Assembly: GCA_021811325.1 (NCBI GenBank)
Contig: JAJZPE010000009.1
Coordinates: 1-42,225 of the forward strand
DNA from: Bacillota bacterium
Lineage (GTDB): Bacteria; Bacillota; Sulfobacillia; JAJYWN01; JAJZPE01
Length of the DNA stretch: 42,225 bases
Reading direction: 5' to 3'
Made by a program: the position numbers and the translations under genes. Positions within the stretch are counted from its first letter, which is position 1. The number at the start of each line of letters is the position of its first letter. Of the stretch, positions 6,584-18,786 are shown in pieces. The notes under the pieces were generated by a model. The model was given only the letters and a program-made list of their open reading frames with translations, made no database searches and was not told where the DNA came from.

Positions 6584-6913
6584 TCATCTCCTGCAGTCCT
6601 TGGGCATCGAACTGGCGGGCTTCAGGTAGTTGGCCTTGGCCACCGCCAGCAACAGCTCGAGGGCTTCGAGGACCCGGTGGTCGGCGATGCCGTAATAGAC
6701 GTTTACTTCCTCGCGCCTGGCCGTGAGGATGCCCTTGGAACGCAAGAGACCAAGCTGAAACGAGATGTTGGCCTGCCTCGTGCGGGTCTTGGCGACGATG
6801 TCCGAGACCCGTAACTCCTGCCCGCTGCTCAACGCGCATAAGATCATCAGCCTGGTGGGATTGGTGAGCGCTTTCACGAGATCGGCGACGATGTCACAAT
6901 CACCCGGCTTCAT
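6584..6913 (-). CDS. ArsR-family winged-helix transcriptional regulator
   Basis: KALTNPTRLMILCALSSGQELRVSDIVAKTRTRQANISFQLGLLRSKGILTARREEVNVYYGIAD; start taken at MKPGDCD (ORF opens at 6955). Confidence 0.85.
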   Translation of the reverse strand: MKPGDCDIVADLVKALTNPTRLMILCALSSGQELRVSDIVAKTRTRQANISFQLGLLRSKGILTARREEVNVYYGIADHRVLEALELLLAVAKANYLKPASSMPKDCRR

Positions 6914-6969: not shown

Positions 6970-7003
6970 ATCAACGATATCATCGATTCTCTCAGGCCGT
7001 CAA
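6970..7003 (-). promoter_or_regulatory. Promoter and putative operator of the arsR-type gene
   Basis: TTGACG-18-TATCGT; imperfect 18-bp inverted repeat ATCGATGATATCGTTGAT overlaps the -10. Confidence 0.5.
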
Positions 7004-7503
7004 ATGAACAGGTTGACGTTGGCCTCGTCCGCTTCCCCCAGGTAGGTCGCGACCCCGGCGTACTCCAGGCCGTCGATCAATTCCTCGCGCTTGAGGCCCA
7101 TCACGTCCATGGACATGGTGCAGGCGATCATCTTGATCCCCTGCTCCTTAGCGGTGGCGATCAGTTCCTCCATCGACGATACGTTCTGTTGCTTCATCAC
7201 CATCTTCATCATCATCGCGCCCATGCCGCCAAAGTTCATCTTAGACAAGCCAAGCCGGCCGGCGCCGCGGGGCATCATCCGGCCGAACATGCCCTGCAGA
7301 AAGCTCTTCTTGGCCTTGATCTTCTCACGCTTGCGCAGGATGTTCAGTCCCCAAAAAGTGAAGAACATGGTCACCTCGTCGCCCATGGCCGCCGCGCCGT
7401 TGGCGATGACGAAAGCCGCCATCGCCTTGTCGAGGTCGCCGCTGAACACGATGATCGTTTTCTTGGTCTTATCCAACCTACTCAATCTCCTTATTCGGCC
7501 CAT
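7000..7503 (-). CDS. DsrE/DsrF-like (DsrE2-type) sulfur-carrier family protein
   Basis: KKTIIVFSGDLDKAMAAFVIANGAAAMGDEVTMFFTFWGL ... MIACTMSMDVMGLKREEL. Confidence 0.85.
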   Translation of the reverse strand: MGRIRRLSRLDKTKKTIIVFSGDLDKAMAAFVIANGAAAMGDEVTMFFTFWGLNILRKREKIKAKKSFLQGMFGRMMPRGAGRLGLSKMNFGGMGAMMMKMVMKQQNVSSMEELIATAKEQGIKMIACTMSMDVMGLKREELIDGLEYAGVATYLGEADEANVNLFI

Positions 7504-8452
7504 ACGCCTGGCACAAGTAATGGGAGATATCCTGGAAACGCATGGCCTCCCCGGCCGCCTTCTGCAGGTTCACATAACAGATGGGGCACATCGTCACCCC
7601 ATCTCTAGCGGCCCGTTTTAGCTGATCCACCCTTTTTTGGGCGTTGGCCAGGGCCTTCTTGGGGTAGAGGGATTCCGCCGGACCGCCGCAGCACCAGGTG
7701 AACTTACCGGCGTCCTCCGGCTCCCTGACGGTCAGCCCCGCCTGACCGAGCAGCGCCCTGGGCTGGTCGATCACGTTCTCGTACCGGGCAAAGACGCAGG
7801 AATCGTGAATCGCCACCTCGCCGGCCAAGGTTTGCGTCGGTTTCCTCCCCTGCTCGGCCAGGACCTCCAGGTAGCTCTTCACCTGCAGGTCATAGCCCTC
7901 GATCATGGTCGGGTAGACCGAGCGCAGCATGTTGGTGGTGTGCGGGTCGACGGTGATGACCTTTTTCACCCCGTGCTTCTTCAGAACCCCGTAGACCTTG
8001 CGGGCGTGCTTTTCCAGGACCTCATCCACCCCCAGGTCGTAAATCAGCGCCCCGGAGTAGAGCTCCTTCTCATAGAGATAACCATAATCAATCCCCGCCT
8101 GCCGCAACAGCGTGGCCACGTTGACCAGGACCTGGTCATAGGCCGCCCGCACCTGGGCGGAAGGCCGGGCCATGAAGGCGGAGATGTTCACCACCCGGTT
8201 CACCTGTCGTCCGAGTCCGGTGAAGTTGGCCAGCCAGGAATCCCCGAGCTTCTCCTCGGCCCGGCTCATCTCCTCGATGTAGGGGATGAGCTGGAACATC
8301 AGCCCGGTGTAGAGCACGGTTTCCCCGCCGCGGGGTAGATTGAGGCCTTTGGCCCACCTGGTGGCGTTACGGGCGGTGATGGGCAGCACCGACCCGCGCT
8401 GGCGCAAGTTGTCGGCCAGGATGCCGATGGTATCGCCGATTGGTAGCGGCAT
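7478..8452 (-). CDS. HdrB-like Fe-S protein with one intact CCG cysteine set
   Basis: C-terminal DSC-X34-CC-X33-CPIC; the N-terminal CCG motif lacks its cysteine (VLYTGLMFQL). Confidence 0.8.
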   Translation of the reverse strand: MPLPIGDTIGILADNLRQRGSVLPITARNATRWAKGLNLPRGGETVLYTGLMFQLIPYIEEMSRAEEKLGDSWLANFTGLGRQVNRVVNISAFMARPSAQVRAAYDQVLVNVATLLRQAGIDYGYLYEKELYSGALIYDLGVDEVLEKHARKVYGVLKKHGVKKVITVDPHTTNMLRSVYPTMIEGYDLQVKSYLEVLAEQGRKPTQTLAGEVAIHDSCVFARYENVIDQPRALLGQAGLTVREPEDAGKFTWCCGGPAESLYPKKALANAQKRVDQLKRAARDGVTMCPICYVNLQKAAGEAMRFQDISHYLCQAYGPNKEIE

Positions 8453-8465
8453 GGGCGTTCGCTCC

Positions 8466-8768
8466 TTATAGCCTGAAGACTTGGCGGTTGATGAAGTGCC
8501 GCAGGGAGCGCACGTTTTCGGCGATGTGCACCCCCGCCGGGCAGTTCACCTCGCACACCTTGCACAAGAGGCAGGAATAGATGGTCTCGGTATTGACCTT
8601 CACCTGGTCTTCCATTCCCAACAGCACATAGCGGAACAACTTGCGGGGCAGCAGTTCGATGCCCATCGGGCAGACCGCGCTGCAGACCCCGCAGTTCATG
8701 CAGGCGGAGGCGTTGAACTCGTTGTTCTGCCGCACTACGTCCACCAGGTCAGGGTTCAAAAGGGCCAT
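8466..8768 (-). CDS. HdrC-like protein with two [4Fe-4S] motifs
   Basis: CMNCGVCSAVCP and CLLCKVCEVNCP. Confidence 0.85.
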   Translation of the reverse strand: MALLNPDLVDVVRQNNEFNASACMNCGVCSAVCPMGIELLPRKLFRYVLLGMEDQVKVNTETIYSCLLCKVCEVNCPAGVHIAENVRSLRHFINRQVFRL

Positions 8769-9016
8769 TACGCTCCCTCCCTCTCCACTACCTGGTACTG
8801 GTAGTGGCCCTCGTCGGTAACCTCTTTGACCTCCGCCACGTAGCCATACTTGCGCATGCCCATCACCCAGAACATCACTTCATGGGTCGGGTAGCCCAAG
8901 GCGGCGGCAATCTGCGGGATGGTCTGCGGCCCGGGCGCCAGGACCTTGAGGATCCGGTTACGCATCAGGTGTTCGTCGCGGATGATTTCCCGGACATCTC
9001 TGTTTGGCATGCTCAT
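8768..9016 (-). CDS. Small winged-helix-like protein embedded in the hdr operon
   Basis: 82 aa, LKVLAPGPQTIPQIAAALGYPTHEVMFWVMGMRKYGYVAEVKEV; start/stop overlaps with both neighbours. Confidence 0.65.
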   Translation of the reverse strand: MSMPNRDVREIIRDEHLMRNRILKVLAPGPQTIPQIAAALGYPTHEVMFWVMGMRKYGYVAEVKEVTDEGHYQYQVVEREGA

Positions 9017-10752
9017 TAGCCTATCTCCTTCAACAGGCCGTCGATCATCGCCTTGACCTGGGCGTCGGTGTAACCCTGCAGATCAATGGCGTCCCGCGGG
9101 CAGACCGGGACGCACCCGCCGCAGCCCTTGCAGACTGCCTCGTTGATCGCCGCCACGTCCTGGTCGTTGAGCCGGACCTTCTCAACCGCCCCGTAGGGGC
9201 AGGTCTCCTGGCACTTGCCGCACCAGGCGCACTGGTCCGGTTTGACCGTGGCCACCAGCGGTTCCAGTTCGGCGAAGCCCTTTTTCAGGATGCCGGCGCT
9301 CTGGGTTACCGCGGCCAGGGCCGAGGCCACGCTCTCGGCGGAGTTCTTGGGCCCCTGGCAGGCGCCGCAGATGTAGACGCCGTCGACCACGGTCTCCACC
9401 GGCCGCAGCTTGGGATGGATCTCGTTGAAGAACCTGTCCTTGCCCACCGGGAGTTTCAGCGTCTTGACCAGTTCCTCGTTGGACCGCGGGACCATGCCGG
9501 TGACCAGGACCACCAGGTCGGCCGGGATGGTCAGTTCCGTCCCCACGGTCAACTGGTCCGCCACCGTTACCGACAACTTGCCGCTATTCTCGTCCCTGGT
9601 CACCGCCGGCGGCGCGTCGTCGGCGAACTTGAGGAACAGTGAGCCCTCCTCCCGGGATTCTTTGTACAGCAGTTCATACTTGCCATAGGTGCGCATGTCC
9701 CGGTACAGGTGGTACTGGTGGACCTTGGCCCCCTTGGCCGCCACTGTCAGCGAGGCGTGCACCGCCGCGTTGCAGCAGTATCGGGAGCAGTACCGGTTGG
9801 CGTTGGGCAGGTCCGGTTTTTGCCGGCTGCCGACGCAGTAGATGTAGGCGATGTCTTTGACGGGCTTCCCTTTGTACACCAAAGGTCCGGTGGAGCTGTC
9901 GATCATCTTCTTGAACTCCGGCAGGGTGACCACCCCGTCCATCCCGTAGCCGTACTCGTCGGCTTCCGGCTGGTAGCTGTCAAAGCCGGTGGCCACGATG
10001 ATCGAACCCACCTCGACCGGGATGGTTTCCGCCGGCCGGCTGTTCACCCGGATGGTCGCCTGGTAGTTGCCGAAACTGCCCGACTTGCCGATCACCTCGG
10101 CGTTGGTGAACACGGTGACGTCGGGCCGCTTCTGGATTTCGCCCCAGAGGCTGGCAATCAGTTGCCGGCCGCCCTTCGCGTGAGGGTACATCCCTTCGAA
10201 CCCGGCCACCCAGCCCCCGATCTCCGGCTCCTTTTCCACCAGGACCGCGGCGAGGCCGATGTCAGACAGTCCCAAGGCGGCCCGCAGGCCGGCGATGCCG
10301 CCGCCGATGACCAGGGCCTTGGGCACCGTCTCCACCACGATGGGTTCCAGTGGCGTGCTCAGCCTGGTGTGGGCGATGCCGGCGCGGACCAACCTGATGG
10401 CCTTGCCCGTCGCCCCGGCCTTGTCGTCGGTGTGCGTCCAGGAGCACTGCTCGCGGATGTTCACCTGGGTGTACTGGTAGGGATTCAGGTCGGCCCGCTT
10501 GGCCGCCCCTCGGAAGGTGAAGGTGTGCAGCTTGGGGGAGCAAGAGGCGACCACCAGGCCGTCCAGGTTCTGCTCCTGGATGTCCTGCACCATTTCCTGC
10601 TGGGTGGCGTCGGAGCAGGTGAACATGGCCGTCTTGGCGACCACCACGCCCGGTTCGTCGCCGACCGCCGCCCGCACTTTCTCCACGTCCACGTAGTCGG
10701 AGATATTGCCGCCGCAGTGGCAGATGTACACGCCAATCCGTCTCTCGCTCAT
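9016..10752 (-). CDS. HdrA-like FAD and [4Fe-4S] protein
   Basis: RIGVYICHCGGNISDYVDV, ALVIGGGIAGLRAAL, CAWCGKCQETCP and CKGCGGCVPVCP. Confidence 0.92.
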   Translation of the reverse strand: MSERRIGVYICHCGGNISDYVDVEKVRAAVGDEPGVVVAKTAMFTCSDATQQEMVQDIQEQNLDGLVVASCSPKLHTFTFRGAAKRADLNPYQYTQVNIREQCSWTHTDDKAGATGKAIRLVRAGIAHTRLSTPLEPIVVETVPKALVIGGGIAGLRAALGLSDIGLAAVLVEKEPEIGGWVAGFEGMYPHAKGGRQLIASLWGEIQKRPDVTVFTNAEVIGKSGSFGNYQATIRVNSRPAETIPVEVGSIIVATGFDSYQPEADEYGYGMDGVVTLPEFKKMIDSSTGPLVYKGKPVKDIAYIYCVGSRQKPDLPNANRYCSRYCCNAAVHASLTVAAKGAKVHQYHLYRDMRTYGKYELLYKESREEGSLFLKFADDAPPAVTRDENSGKLSVTVADQLTVGTELTIPADLVVLVTGMVPRSNEELVKTLKLPVGKDRFFNEIHPKLRPVETVVDGVYICGACQGPKNSAESVASALAAVTQSAGILKKGFAELEPLVATVKPDQCAWCGKCQETCPYGAVEKVRLNDQDVAAINEAVCKGCGGCVPVCPRDAIDLQGYTDAQVKAMIDGLLKEIG

Positions 10753-13448
10753 GATGGCCGCCCCACCTTCTCCACGTAAGCTGCCGCCTGGGCGGCCGCC
10801 GCCCCGGCATGCAGGATGGAATCGGGGATATCCTTGGCCCCCGAGGCCGACCCGGCCACGTATACCCCGTCGATGCTGGTCCGGCCCGGGTTGAGGTCCT
10901 CGTCGACTTCCTCAACGTAGTAGTAATTGTCCAGCTTCAGTTGGCCGCCGGGGAACAGCTTCCCGGCCTCCAGGTTGGGCTGGATGCCCACCGCCAGCAC
11001 CACCAGGTCGTACTCGGCTTCATTGATTCGGCCACCATTGGCGATGTCCTCATAGTAAAGGAGCAGGTTGCCGTCTTCCTTCTCCTTGATCCTGGCCACC
11101 CGGCCCTTGACGAAATTGGCCCCCATCGCCTTGGCCTGTTCGTAGAACTCGTCGTAGCCCTTGTTGAAGGCCCGGATATCGATGTAGTGCACGGTCACAT
11201 CGGCCAGCGGCAGGGCGCCCATGATCAACTGGTTCTGCTTGATGGAGTACATGCAGCAGACCTTGGAGCACAGGGGGTTGTTCACCGTCTGGTCGCGGGA
11301 GCCGGTGCACAGGATGTAGGCGATGCGGTCCGGCACCTTGCCGTCCCCCGGTCGCAGCACGGTATTATAGGGCCGGGTAGGGGCCAGCAGCCGGTCCATC
11401 TGCATCCCGGTGATGACGTTCTTGAACCTGCCGTAGCCATACTGCGGCTTCAGGTCGGCCGGGAACAGCTTGAACCCGGTGGACACGATGACCGCCCCCA
11501 CCTCGGCCTCAACTTTCTGTTCCCGCATCTCCATTTTCACCGCGTCGGCCGGGCAGGTGGCGACACACTGGTGGCACTCGGAACAGACGCCACAGTCCAG
11601 GCAGCGACTGACGCTCACGAGGGCCTCCTCCTCGGTCAACGGGGGCTCGATCTCGGCAAAACCGCGCGGCTCAGCGCTCAGGGTCACGGGGTTGACCACC
11701 GGGTCGCGCCGGCTGTGGCTTCGCTGCCGCTGCAGCACCTCGGCCTTGTCCACCATCGGCAGTTTCGGATCAAACTCGGCCTCGTTCAGTTCCTTGCCCT
11801 GCAGCCAGCGGTCGATCATGAAGGCGGCCTTGCGGCCCCGGCCGGCGGCGGTGTTGATGAACGAGGCCCCGGAAACCACGTCCCCGGCGGCAAAGATGTA
11901 GGGAACACTGGTTTGCAGCGTAGCCGGGTCGACCTGGATGGTCCGGTTCTTGTTCACCTGCACCTGGCCGGCGAAAGCAGCGGTATCCGGGGTCATGCCG
12001 ACGGCCACGATCACCGCGTCGCAGTCCAGTCTTTCGGTAGTGGTCTCATCGTACTGCGGGCTGAACCGGTGGGCACTGTCAAACACCGCCGTGCAGCGCT
12101 TGAGCTCCACACCCTGGACCCGGCCCTGGCCCAGGAACTGCTTCACTCCCCAGGAGTTCAGCACGGTCACGCCCTCGGTTAGGGCTTCCTCTACTTCCCA
12201 GGCGTGGGCGGGCATGTCGGCCCTCGATTCCAGGCTGACCTGACGTACCGATCTGGCCCCCAACCGCCGGGCGCTACGGCTGGCGTCAATGGCCACGTTG
12301 CCGCCGCCGATGACGACCACATCCTTACCCTTCAGGTCGGTGGGGGTACCCAGTTTGACCGCTCGCAGAAAGTCAAGGGAGCTGACCACGCCCTGAAGCT
12401 CTTCCCCCGGCACGTTCAGTTTGGCGGCCCGCGGCGTGCCGGTGGCCACCAGGACAGCGTCGAAGCCCTGCTGCTTGAGTTCTTCCAGGTTTTCCACCCG
12501 GGTGTTGGTGGCGATCTCCACCCCCAGGGCGGTGACGTTACGGATGTCCTGATCGACCACCTCGGCCGGGAGCCGGTAGGCGGGGATGGCCAGGCGGAGC
12601 ATCCCGCCGGGCTGGGGCGCGGCTTCCAGGATCTTCACCTGGTGGCCCTGGAGGGCCAACTGCCAGGCCGCTGTCAGGCCGGCCGGCCCGGAGCCGACGA
12701 TGGCCACTTTCTTCCCGTTGGGGGCGGGGACTTTCACCTCCGCGCGTTCATGGTCACGGTAATGGGTATCGGCGACAAAGCGCTTCAACCGGCGGATGGG
12801 CAGGGGGCCTTCCAGGCCGCCCCGGGTACATTCCTCCTCGCAGGGGGCGAAGCAGGCCCGGCCCAAGCTGCCCACCAGGGGCGTGCTCTCCAGGACCAGG
12901 TTAAAGGCCTCTTCGTACTTCCCGCTACGGATCAGGGCCACGTAGCCGTGGGACTTGATCCCGGCGGGGCAAGTAAAGGTGCAGGGCGAGGTCCCGCCCC
13001 GCTCGATGACCGCCTTTTTTGGCACAGCCTGCGGGAAGGCGATGTAGGCCGCCCGCCGGGAGACCAAGTCGGCGTTGAACTGGTCGGGCACAGCCACGTT
13101 GCAGCCCATCTCGCATTGCCGGCAACCGGTGCACAGGGCTGGGTCGACGAAGGTCGGCTTGCGGCGGATCTTCACCTGGAACCGACCGTCCCCGTCGCGC
13201 CGGATTCCCTCCACCTCGGAGTAGGTAAGTACGGTGATGTTGGGGTGGTGGATGGTGGCGGCCATCTTGGGGGTGGAGATGCAGCTGGCGCAGTCCAGGG
13301 TGGGAAACACCTTGCTCAGGAGGATCATCTTCCCGCCCACGCTGGCCTCTTTTTCCACCAGCAGGACCTTGTAGCCCATGTCGCCCAGTTTCAGGGCGGA
13401 TTCCATACCCCCGATACCGCTGCCGACCACCAGCATGTCGTAGTTCAT
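10749..13448 (-). CDS. HdrA-like protein with internal GltD-like NAD(P)/FAD oxidoreductase domain
   Basis: N-term MLVVGSGIGGMESAL...TLDCASCISTPKM (HdrA), then CTFTCPAGI...KKVAIVGSGPAGLTAAWQLA...DVVVIGGGNVAIDASR (GltD), then CLDCGVCSECHQCVATCP and HdrA C-terminal half. Confidence 0.88.
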   Translation of the reverse strand: MNYDMLVVGSGIGGMESALKLGDMGYKVLLVEKEASVGGKMILLSKVFPTLDCASCISTPKMAATIHHPNITVLTYSEVEGIRRDGDGRFQVKIRRKPTFVDPALCTGCRQCEMGCNVAVPDQFNADLVSRRAAYIAFPQAVPKKAVIERGGTSPCTFTCPAGIKSHGYVALIRSGKYEEAFNLVLESTPLVGSLGRACFAPCEEECTRGGLEGPLPIRRLKRFVADTHYRDHERAEVKVPAPNGKKVAIVGSGPAGLTAAWQLALQGHQVKILEAAPQPGGMLRLAIPAYRLPAEVVDQDIRNVTALGVEIATNTRVENLEELKQQGFDAVLVATGTPRAAKLNVPGEELQGVVSSLDFLRAVKLGTPTDLKGKDVVVIGGGNVAIDASRSARRLGARSVRQVSLESRADMPAHAWEVEEALTEGVTVLNSWGVKQFLGQGRVQGVELKRCTAVFDSAHRFSPQYDETTTERLDCDAVIVAVGMTPDTAAFAGQVQVNKNRTIQVDPATLQTSVPYIFAAGDVVSGASFINTAAGRGRKAAFMIDRWLQGKELNEAEFDPKLPMVDKAEVLQRQRSHSRRDPVVNPVTLSAEPRGFAEIEPPLTEEEALVSVSRCLDCGVCSECHQCVATCPADAVKMEMREQKVEAEVGAVIVSTGFKLFPADLKPQYGYGRFKNVITGMQMDRLLAPTRPYNTVLRPGDGKVPDRIAYILCTGSRDQTVNNPLCSKVCCMYSIKQNQLIMGALPLADVTVHYIDIRAFNKGYDEFYEQAKAMGANFVKGRVARIKEKEDGNLLLYYEDIANGGRINEAEYDLVVLAVGIQPNLEAGKLFPGGQLKLDNYYYVEEVDEDLNPGRTSIDGVYVAGSASGAKDIPDSILHAGAAAAQAAAYVEKVGRPS

Positions 13449-13451
13449 TCT

Positions 13452-13880
13452 CTATCCCTTCCTGGCAGGTCCAAGTTTAGCCAGCGAGGTGGAAAACTCT
13501 CGCATGTAATTGGTGAACGGCTCGGCGCAAACCGAGCAGATTGCGGCCATCTTCAGTCGCTGCGGCTCATAGCCGCTCTGTTTCAACAACTCCTGCGCCT
13601 CGGCCACGATGTGAGAGGTGCGTTCCGAGCAGTCGGGCAACAAGGCGCATTCGTCCCCGTCGGCGGCGATGAACACCCCGTCGAAGCCCCGTTCTATGGC
13701 GTGCAGCACCCAGCCGGGCTTGAGGCCGCTGGTGCAGGGCACGCTGATAACCACCACGCCGGGTGAATAGTGCATGTGCGAACTCCCGGCCAGGTCAATG
13801 CCGGGGTCGGAGATGTTGTTGGTGGAGAAGGCCAGGATCTTGGGCACAAAACCCTGGCCTTCTTGAACCTGCGTAGTCAT
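13452..13880 (-). CDS. MvhD/FlpD-like hydrogenase iron-sulfur subunit
   Basis: FSTNNISDPGIDLAG...VVVISVPCTSGLKPGWVLHAIERGFDGVFIAADGDECALLPDCSERT. Confidence 0.8.
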   Translation of the reverse strand: MTTQVQEGQGFVPKILAFSTNNISDPGIDLAGSSHMHYSPGVVVISVPCTSGLKPGWVLHAIERGFDGVFIAADGDECALLPDCSERTSHIVAEAQELLKQSGYEPQRLKMAAICSVCAEPFTNYMREFSTSLAKLGPARKG

Positions 13881-14134
13881 TACTTCAGCCTCTTCACAAA
13901 TAACTTCCAGTAGCCGGCTTCTTCAACCACACCCAAGAACTCGTGACCCATCTTCTTGGACCAGGCCGGCAGGTCTTTCTGCGTACCGGTATCGGTGGCC
14001 ATGACCTCCATGATCTCACCCGGTTTCACTTCCACGATGCCTTTCTTGGCCGCCAGGATCGGTCCCGGGCAGGAGGTGCCCCTGGCGTCCACAACCTTCT
14101 GGGCCTTTATCGCTTTCAGCTCTTCCGGTGTCAT
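13880..14134 (-). CDS. TusA-family sulfur carrier protein
   Basis: VVDARGTSCPGPILAAKKGI with CPxP; aaggagg RBS 8 nt before ATG at 14134. Confidence 0.88.
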   Translation of the reverse strand: MTPEELKAIKAQKVVDARGTSCPGPILAAKKGIVEVKPGEIMEVMATDTGTQKDLPAWSKKMGHEFLGVVEEAGYWKLFVKRLK

Positions 14135-14206
14135 TTTCTTCTCCTCCTTGGATGGGCTGCAACCACTACAAAGAAAACAAGACATTTCAATATGTTGTTC
14201 CTCTCG

Positions 14207-14625: not shown

Positions 14626-15996
14626 CTAGTACTACTCCGTTAAGTGTCTGGCAGAATGACCGGCCTGCCGCAGGTCAGGCAGGAGCCAAGGCGGATCAGC
14701 AGTACCCGTTGCAGTTCTTTCTTGGCGCGTCGGAGGGTCCACCCAGAAGTTTTTTTTAGAGCGGAAGCCCTCCATCACCAGGAAGTCAAAGGCGGTCATC
14801 GCCAGGGTGACATGGTGATGCCAGCCGGCCCAGGAACGGCCCTCGAAGTGATCCAGTCCAAGATCGTCCTTCAGCTGCTGATAATTCTGCTCCACCCACC
14901 AGCGGATCTTGGCCCAGTACACCAGTTCTTGGAGCGGCGTGGATTCGGGCAGGTTGGAGAGCCAGAACTTCGTCGGCTCTGACGTGCCCGGCGGCCACTC
15001 GATCAGCAGCCATTCGACCGGTTCGGTCACCTTCCCACGCACATGCCCGTGCGATGGCTGCGCCCGGACCACGGCAAAGCGCCCCTCCATCGGGCCCTTG
15101 GTTCCTTCCCGCCAACGCACCTCCGCCCAGGCGTCCGCGGGAAGTGCCTTGGCTATTTCCAAGGCGTGTTCGGGCGATGCCAGGCGCTGTCGCGCGGGAG
15201 GACGACCCCGCCCGCGATAGGCCGGGAGAGGCTCTGAGGTCACCTGGTTGCGCCAGGTCCCCACATCACCCGTCACGCCGACCACATACCGCAACCCGCG
15301 CTCCCGCAGGCCGGCCCGGAAATCGGTGGTCACCCCATACCCGGCGTCGGCCACCACCACGGTCACCGGGATTCCCCATGACTTTGCGTGGTCGATCATC
15401 TCCAGGCCGATTTGCCATTTGCGTTTGAACGTGACGCCAGCGGGAATACCGGCCTTTCTCCGCCGCTCCGGGTCATCCACCCACTTCTCGGGAAGGTAGA
15501 GCTGGAAATCCAGCGGGAAACAACCTTCGTCCGTGGCGTAGTTGAGGCTCACCCCGATCTGGCAGTTGCCGACCTTGCCCAGGGTACCGGAATATTGGCG
15601 AGCCACGCCGACTGAATGGGCCCCCTTCTTCGGAAACCCCGTATCGTCGAGGATCCAAGCCGCCCGCGGGCTCGCCGCACGGATCATCTGCTCGGCCAAC
15701 ACCCGCCGTACCGGCATCCAATCCCAAGGGCTCTGGCTGACGAACTGCTGAAGGGCCTGTTCGTCCCCGCCGTAACGTTCGGCCATGCCGGCCGCCGTCT
15801 TTCTCCCTCCCTCCAACAGCAAACCCTGTACGTAGAACGCGCCCCACCGCCGCCGTTCCAACCGGCCAATCAGGGGCAGGATTGGTTCCAAGAAGCTCTC
15901 CAAACGGTCCCGGGCCTCTCGCAACGCTTTCTTGTCCATGCTCTCAACATAGCACACTTTTCCTCAATGTACAATCACTTAACGCAGTAGTACTAG
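14626..15996 (-). mobile_element. Intact IS701-type insertion sequence with CTAG target duplication
   Basis: IRs TACTACTCCGTTAAGTG / TACTACTGCGTTAAGTG (16/17) at 14630 and 15992, each flanked by CTAG. Confidence 0.88.
14632..15939 (-). CDS. IS701-type transposase
   Basis: AAWILDDTGFPKKGAHSVGVARQYSGTLGKVGNCQIGVSL; EQNYQQLKDDLGLDHFEGRSWAGWHHH; stop codon lies in the IR. Confidence 0.9.
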   Translation of the reverse strand: MDKKALREARDRLESFLEPILPLIGRLERRRWGAFYVQGLLLEGGRKTAAGMAERYGGDEQALQQFVSQSPWDWMPVRRVLAEQMIRAASPRAAWILDDTGFPKKGAHSVGVARQYSGTLGKVGNCQIGVSLNYATDEGCFPLDFQLYLPEKWVDDPERRRKAGIPAGVTFKRKWQIGLEMIDHAKSWGIPVTVVVADAGYGVTTDFRAGLRERGLRYVVGVTGDVGTWRNQVTSEPLPAYRGRGRPPARQRLASPEHALEIAKALPADAWAEVRWREGTKGPMEGRFAVVRAQPSHGHVRGKVTEPVEWLLIEWPPGTSEPTKFWLSNLPESTPLQELVYWAKIRWWVEQNYQQLKDDLGLDHFEGRSWAGWHHHVTLAMTAFDFLVMEGFRSKKNFWVDPPTRQERTATGTADPPWLLPDLRQAGHSARHLTE

Positions 15997-17599: not shown

Positions 17600-18457
17600 T
17601 TACGCTGCCTTCTCTGCTGGAACCCGTTCTTCGTATTCCGTGGGGGACGAGTAACCGAGACCTGAGTGTAGCCGCTGGTGGTTGTAGAAGACCTCGATCC
17701 ACTCAAAGATCGCCTGTGTCGCCTCGGCCCGGCTCCGCCAGGTCCGCCCATCAATCAGCTCCGCCTTGAGCGTCGCGAAGAAGGTCTCCGCTACCGCGTT
17801 GTCAAGGCGTTCACCCTTCCGGCTCATCGAGGCGGTGATCCCGGCGCCGGCCAGGGCCACCCGGTAGGCCGCCGAGGTGTACTGGCAGCCGCGGTCGGTA
17901 TGGTGCACAAGCTCCCCCGGCCGGGGGCGACGACGACGGATGGCCATGTCCAGGGCACTCAGGGCCAGCTCCGCGCGCAGGTGGTCGGCCATCGACCAGC
18001 CCACAATCCGCCGCGTGTAGCAGTCCATGAGCGTCGCCAGGTACAACCAGCCCTCCTGGGTCGGCACATAGGTGATGTCGCCGAACCAGAGCCGGTCCGG
18101 AGCCTCGGCCACGAAGTTCTGGGCCACCAGGTTGGGGGCGACCGGCGCCCCGGGGTCGACGACCGTTGTCCGCACCCGGCGTCGTGACCGGCTGATGCCG
18201 ACAAGGTCGCTCGTCCGCATCAGCCGGGCGACCCGCTTCAGCGAGATGGCCACGCCTTCCATGGCAAGCTTGGCGCGCACCCTGGGCGTCCCGTAGGTCC
18301 CCCGGCTGGCTCGGTGGATGGAGCGGATGCGCTCTGTCAGGGCCGCGTCCTTCCGGGCCCTCTGGGACGGACCCCGCTTCCGCCAGGCGTAATACCCGGC
18401 CCGTGAAACCGTCAGCACCCGGCACATGAGCGAAACCGCATGATACGCCTTCTCCAC
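17600..18457 (-). pseudogene. IS3-family transposase orfB (DDE); coupled start likely at 18481 with in-frame TAG at codon 4
   Basis: YGTPRVRAKLAMEG...LWFGDITYVPTQEGWLYLATLMDCYTRRIVGWSM...FFATLKAELIDGRTWRSRAEATQAIFEWIEVFYNHQRLHSGLGYSSPTEYE. Confidence 0.75.
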
Positions 18458-18477
18458 CTCGATGAACCGCTACCGGC

Positions 18478-18786
18478 TCACCGGGTCTCGCTCTCCTTCG
18501 CGAAGAAGGCCGCGGCTTTTTTTAGGATCTCGCGCTCCTCGCGCAGCACTCTGATCTCCCGCCGTAGCCGCTGCAACTCCGCCTTTTCATCGGTGGTCAG
18601 ATCGCCCGGCCGCCCACGGCCGGCGTCCGTTTCCGCCTGACGAACCCAGTGCCGCAGCCCCTCGCTCGAGATTCCCAGTTCCCTCGCGACCTCGAGGATC
18701 GACTTACCGCTCGTCCTTACCAGCTCAACAGCCTGAGACCGGAACTCTGCGGGATACGGGGGATGGCTTCTTGGCATGGACCCCAC
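18478..18786 (-). CDS. IS3-family transposase orfA (HTH)
   Basis: YPAEFRSQAVELVRTSGKSILEVARELGISSEGLRHWVRQAE. Confidence 0.88.
   Translation of the reverse strand: MGSMPRSHPPYPAEFRSQAVELVRTSGKSILEVARELGISSEGLRHWVRQAETDAGRGRPGDLTTDEKAELQRLRREIRVLREEREILKKAAAFFAKESETR

Follow-up and report, generated by a model that had tools for sequence, protein, structure and literature searches.

What does an HdrA protein do when an NAD(P)/FAD oxidoreductase of the GltD type lies inside it and its gene stands among genes for sulfur carriers? The question is raised by the 42,225-nucleotide stretch analyzed here (the window; positions 1 to 42,225 of contig JAJZPE010000009.1, Bacillota bacterium assembly GCA_021811325.1), in which a first-pass annotation made from the letters alone had described an 899-aa open reading frame (ORF) at 10749-13448 that begins as HdrA, switches to a complete GltD-like module and resumes as HdrA. 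We recovered this ORF, on the minus strand, with every motif quoted for it, and refer to it as hdrA(III). It is a real fusion that places an NAD(P)H-handling module inside HdrA, and it belongs to a conserved cassette with tusA, mvhD, a second hdrA, a winged-helix-like gene, hdrC, hdrB and dsrE, a setting that the first-pass annotation had passed over. We put at roughly 55% the probability that HdrA(III), the second HdrA, HdrC, HdrB and MvhD form an oxidoreductase complex that links NAD(H) to sulfur or a disulfide held on TusA/DsrE-type carriers. The parts of hdrA(III), in the order of the protein, are these:

10749..13448, minus strand: hdrA(III), 899-aa HdrA with an inserted GltD/NfnB-like module (from the ORF, Pfam, structure matches and predicted fold)
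13149..13448, minus strand: first half of the HdrA FAD domain (about aa 1-100; C53 and C56 conserved), matching HdrA 5odc_A/8rvu_a
12993..13148, minus strand: first half of the inserted ferredoxin domain of HdrA (C106, C109, C112, C116; AVPKKAVIE junction)
11664..12992, minus strand: inserted GltD-like module (about aa 153-595), with Fer4_20 cysteines C156/C160/C199/C203/C207 and FAD and NAD(P) Rossmann folds
12207..12251, minus strand: nicotinamide-specificity segment, aa 400-414 (S405-L406-E407), from the alignment and the YRR rule of PMC7596348
11529..11615, minus strand: second half of the ferredoxin domain (C616, C619, C622, C625, C628, C632)
10752..11528, minus strand: second half of the HdrA FAD domain, with D685 (E356 position) at 11394-11396 and K737 (K409 position) at 11238-11240

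When we searched solved structures, residues 5-150 and 614/618-891 of hdrA(III) matched two pieces of one HdrA region (5odc_A 146-290 and 289-564), and residues 153-628 formed an insert that matched NfnA, StnB, NfnL and GltD; a Pfam search, one of the checks first proposed for this ORF, found Fer4_20 (154-231) and Pyr_redox_2 (246-536), so that the order HdrA, GltD-like module, HdrA was borne out. The GltD/NfnB-like module has Fer4_20, two Rossmann folds and seven cluster cysteines, its RCxxC (C616, C619) coming from the C-terminal side of the insert, and it enters at the HdrA ferredoxin loop, the position by which type III HdrA is defined. Structure prediction, the other computational check, gave one confident chain (AlphaFold2; pLDDT 90.9, pTM 0.85), which Foldseek fitted to HdrA 8rvu_a across the insert (TM-score by target 0.94) and also to NfnABC 9bov_A. 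An assembly join, named by the first-pass annotation as one way in which it might be wrong, is ruled out because about 37 orthologues from other genomes carry the insertion at the same junction in many independent assemblies; the GC content at third codon positions (GC3) is likewise even over the three segments of the gene (0.88/0.85/0.88). Two long antisense ORFs over hdrA(III), at 10809-12182 (+, 457 aa) and 12204-13766 (+, 520 aa), are probably an effect of high GC3.

Every cysteine of the presumed electron wire of HdrA(III) is invariant among orthologues of this compact form and nearly so in the long, HdrL-type homologues, and the existence of an Fe-S wire within the chain is supported by homology. 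The single-chain route from NAD(P)H to the HdrA flavin that the first-pass annotation had proposed appears well supported by the cysteine inventory, the nicotinamide site, the confident model and the homology to Moorella HdrA (PMC9430772). A YRR motif holds the NADP phosphate in NfnB and DsrL-2, and enzymes without YRR prefer NAD(H) (PMC7596348); as hdrA(III) reads SLES (S405-L406-E407) at the position where NADP(H) enzymes have YRR, NAD(H) is predicted to be its nicotinamide. We preferred this experimentally tested rule to the GXGXXG/GXGXXA rule for telling NAD from NADP, on which we did not rely, the window motif being GGGNVA and yet the YRR position NAD-like. Homology and the published motif rule together thus give good support to entry of NAD(H) via hdrA(III), and NAD(P)H oxidation is the activity predicted from its homologs (PMC9430772, PMC7596348).

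The surrounding genes of the cassette, again running down the minus strand, are the following:

13880..14185, minus strand: tusA, a sulfur carrier (PF01206; CPGP; C39 invariant in 24/24)
13452..13880, minus strand: mvhD/FlpD with remodelled cysteines (PF02662; C49, C78, C84, C115, C118)
9016..10752, minus strand: second hdrA, 578 aa, with an N-terminal HdrA domain, a C-terminal dicluster ferredoxin and no inserted ferredoxin; His332 at the K409 position
8768..9016, minus strand: 82-aa winged-helix-like gene, conserved in cassettes, with only weak Pfam matches
8466..8768, minus strand: hdrC-like dicluster ferredoxin
7478..8452, minus strand: hdrB-like subunit with a single CCG domain (C219, C254, C255, C289, C292)
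7000..7503, minus strand: dsrE-family sulfurtransferase (DsrE2/3-like, C128), a conserved neighbour (PF13686, 1.5e-67; NF047629 below cutoff)
6584..6913, minus strand: ArsR-family regulator downstream of dsrE, a possible cassette member (PF01022, 2.6e-9)

These genes are tightly packed in the operon order tusA-mvhD-hdrA(III)-hdrA-wHTH-hdrC-hdrB-dsrE (wHTH being the winged-helix-like gene), followed by the ArsR-type regulator. The second hdrA is a separate gene that overlaps hdrA(III) by 4 nt, and the winged-helix-like gene stands between it and hdrC with a 1-nt overlap with each. Because the two portions absent from hdrA(III), an N-terminal HdrA domain and a dicluster ferredoxin at the C terminus, are supplied by the second hdrA, the two overlapping genes look like a split counterpart of one HdrL chain. 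Directly upstream of tusA is an IS701-family transposase (14632-15957, minus strand), and further upstream an integrase/HTH transposase pair (rve, HTH_Tnp_1; 17600-18786, minus strand).

Conservation of the cassette extends over five or more bacterial phyla, among them Bacillota, Chloroflexota, Actinomycetota, Acidobacteriota and that of a Zixibacteria metagenome-assembled genome (MAG), and the compact form occurred in 6/399, 9/301, 6/297, 10/149 and 7/119 genomes of the phylum samples, counts that include partial matches and, among the 297, the divergent locus L097. Long relatives (mostly about 1100-1540 aa) were common, and the compact form rare, in the 399-genome sample of the window's own phylum. 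A tusA gene was in the cassette at 36/36 compact loci whose contig reaches it, and a dsrE-family gene was nearby in 18/26 loci of a first set and 10/12 later ones, some of the others being cut by contig ends; hdrC and hdrB are fused in several cassette loci, and ArsR-type genes lie near 7 others besides that of the window. The neighbourhoods of 10 long HdrL-type loci gave no match to tusA (0/10), dsrE or the winged-helix-like gene, and each had mvhD, an hdrC-like gene or both. Extra sulfur genes stand near some cassettes, namely an SQR-like flavoprotein identified by reading (L095:2604-3836) and, by hidden Markov model, a rhodanese (L009:7121-8110) and an ArsR-rhodanese fusion (L016:2823-3602).

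Compact HdrA(III) proteins form one clade against the long proteins (SH-aLRT 100), and this clade differs from them at residues used to call HdrA proteins bifurcating. The E356 position is Asp (D685) in all compact cassette members, whereas L097 and each of the 33 long homologues have Glu there, and the K409 position is kept as an invariant Lys (K737), so that the pair of residues kept in all archaeal type III HdrA is not kept whole here. The deepest compact relative (L097, genome G910) keeps the Glu, its NAD site is acidic, and neither the tusA context nor a downstream hdrA accompanies it. In the second HdrA both bifurcation residues are missing, with His at the Lys position in 26/26 aligned proteins. 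The cassette MvhD has lost the canonical FxCxxC and GC cysteines of its [2Fe-2S] site in every aligned member and instead has the invariant C49, C78, C84, C115 and C118, whereas 5odc_D and 13/13 MvhDs from Hdr loci of the long type or of other kinds retain the canonical cysteines. The cassette HdrB has one CCG stretch (213-297), whereas the HdrCB at a long-type locus has two.

These changes bear most directly on the idea that the cassette encodes a bifurcating NADH dehydrogenase like those of the Flx-Hdr or Moorella systems, one that would send the electrons of NADH partly to ferredoxin (or a different carrier of low potential) and partly to a disulfide bound by HdrB, with TusA/DsrE being incidental. 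Membership in the HdrA family, the invariant K737 and the proposal of bifurcation for archaeal type III HdrA, which has both key residues (PMC12054007), speak for it, as does the fact that some cassette carriers are sulfate reducers or have carbon monoxide dehydrogenase/acetyl-CoA synthase (CODH/ACS). However, three changes argue against ordinary bifurcation: the Glu is lost, MvhD is altered and the second HdrA has neither residue. Access to the ferredoxin site may moreover be blocked by the inserted GltD (PMC12054007), the tusA/dsrE linkage is clade-specific, and we consider this explanation unlikely. The first-pass annotation had suggested that the fused chain could replace FlxAB or NfnB-type partners. 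No flxAB-type NADH-oxidising genes were identified among the window annotations or the conserved cassette neighbours. Given the neighbouring genes, the exchange of Glu for Asp and the remodelled MvhD, we favour sulfur-carrier chemistry over a simple Flx/Nfn substitute.

The cassette hosts comprise sulfate reducers, putative aerobes and other anaerobes. With dsrA over cutoff in only 5/15 cassette genomes and aprA in 11/32, we rejected a dependence of the cassette on sulfate reduction, and with CdhC in only 7/32 a dependence on the Wood-Ljungdahl pathway; a haem-copper oxidase family match was present in 8/15, the window's host among them. The nicotinamide site is acidic in 11/36 cassette rows of the tree and YRR in 25/36, with two changes on the tree; the dsrA-positive genomes all fall in the YRR clade (5/5), and none of the five acidic-form genomes tested had dsrA over cutoff, a split between NAD and NADP that seems to match the DsrL trend, in few and related lineages only. 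One could envisage an sHdr-like oxidation of TusA-bound sulfane sulfur towards sulfite, with electrons passing straight to NAD(P)+ via the inserted module in place of the lipoate protein/dihydrolipoamide dehydrogenase route. The TusA and DsrE partners are as in sHdr clusters (PMC6067878), the NAD-type site in lineages without detected dsrA matches the DsrL rule that oxidisers use NAD+, and the oxidase matches would suit it too. We nonetheless hold this to be improbable: the sHdr layout hdrC1B1A-hyp-hdrC2B2 with lbpA is not in the cassette or its conserved neighbours (the rest of the genome was not searched for lbpA), those neighbours include no second hdrC/hdrB pair or lipoate ligase, HdrB has one CCG, and the five dsrA-positive cassette genomes carry the YRR form. 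The variety of hosts, with or without dsrA, aprA, CODH/ACS or oxidase, and the ArsR-type regulators near several loci would also accord with a thiol-redox or maturation role in which NADH keeps TusA/DsrE or a small-molecule disulfide reduced, outside energy metabolism; yet an enzyme with so many cofactors would be an expensive housekeeping tool, its occurrence within phyla is sparse, and of the explanations considered this is the one to which we give least credence.

The host itself is a MAG-like assembly (2.79 Mb, 248 contigs), and the nearest named match to its hdrA(III) is in a Bacillota MAG (L009; 83% in tblastn). We found no dsrA or aprA over cutoff in this genome, which has a CdhC match and COX1-family matches. 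An HdrL-type gene is present as well, its two parts apparently lying at the ends of contigs C187 (L047) and C163 (L048), with hdrC before it, mvhD and a MetF-related domain (PF12225) after it and the CODH/ACS gene CdhC on the same contig C187. Because this HdrL-type gene with MvhD and the MetF-related domain is encoded separately, the cassette is probably not a stand-in for the Moorella-type system, and the two are unlikely to be redundant.

Under the sulfur-carrier reading that we prefer, HdrA(III) would serve as the port for NAD(H) in a soluble complex that also contains the second HdrA, HdrC, the single-CCG HdrB and the remodelled MvhD. Electrons would pass between NAD(H) and the FAD of the GltD module, and via the [4Fe-4S] clusters of the module and two ferredoxin-loop clusters to the HdrA flavin; from there they would reach the C-terminal ferredoxin of the second HdrA, HdrC and finally the noncubane cluster of HdrB, where a persulfide or disulfide presented by TusA would be reduced, or in reverse oxidised, and handed on by DsrE. 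The reaction might run in either direction, NAD(P)H driving a reduction or NAD(P)+ accepting the electrons of an oxidation. Several points weigh against this proposal: proximity of genes is no proof of the substrate, TusA could have a regulatory function or work in different pathways, and the retained K737 would be compatible with a bifurcating reaction. A bolder version, which we offer only tentatively, is that the cassette defines a distinct and undescribed Hdr class, an NAD(P)(H):protein-persulfide (or trisulfide) oxidoreductase in which bifurcation may be lost or retuned, MvhD would be a cysteine-rich docking/redox subunit for TusA/DsrE and not an electron inlet, and the HdrA port would be set to NAD or NADP according to the metabolism of the host. 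Through this one conserved cluster, Hdr electron transfer and the relay of sulfur by TusA/DsrE are both linked to the pool of NAD(P)H; if our reading is correct, carrier-bound sulfur and NAD(P)H would be connected directly, and the cassette would offer a natural test case for the Glu/Lys rule by which HdrA proteins are called bifurcating.

The GltD-in-HdrA architecture is already published (PMC12054007, PMC9430772, PMC2702500), and we rejected its novelty on this literature; the first-pass annotation had foreseen that the design might prove common and characterised, and the architecture is indeed known. For the cassette the outcome differs, as we found no description of tusA-mvhD-hdrA(III) in the open-access literature, and the new part is an apparently undescribed, widespread, sulfur-relay-linked variant with a conserved setting. 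Type III HdrA was defined in 2025 from nine archaeal sequences with GltD inserted in the ferredoxin domain, and NADH entry was proposed (PMC12054007); the proteins of ANME-1 and Bathyarchaeota share both features with ours. However, they are partnered with mvhADG or other hdrA, keep E356 and K409 and have no reported tusA/dsrE, whereas the protein studied here has Asp in place of Glu and leaves the N- and C-terminal HdrA domains to a separate chain. The 162.8-kDa HdrA of the Moorella thermoacetica HdrABC-MvhD-MetVF complex, for which NADH oxidation was reported, likewise has a TrxR-like domain interrupted by a GltD domain (PMC9430772), but it holds the second HdrA in the same chain, keeps E and K in both halves and is MetVF-linked, where the window has two overlapping genes linked to tusA/dsrE. 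The same GltD-inserted architecture was known by 2009 in HdrL of Desulfobacterium autotrophicum, a large single chain of which some copies are selenoproteins and one locus is followed by dsrABC (PMC2702500). The sHdr complex resembles the cassette in the genetic linkage of Hdr subunits to TusA and DsrE proteins but has no GltD insert, and its hdrC1B1A-hyp-hdrC2B2 genes go with a lipoate-binding protein (PMC6067878). The nearest solved relatives of the inserted module, NfnABC/StnABC (9bov, 9n5u, 8oh5), carry it in transhydrogenase complexes and not within HdrA. DsrL is a separate protein, a partner of DsrAB without HdrA, and is alike in being a GltD/NfnB-like NAD(P)H port for sulfur enzymes in which YRR marks the switch between NAD and NADP (PMC7596348).

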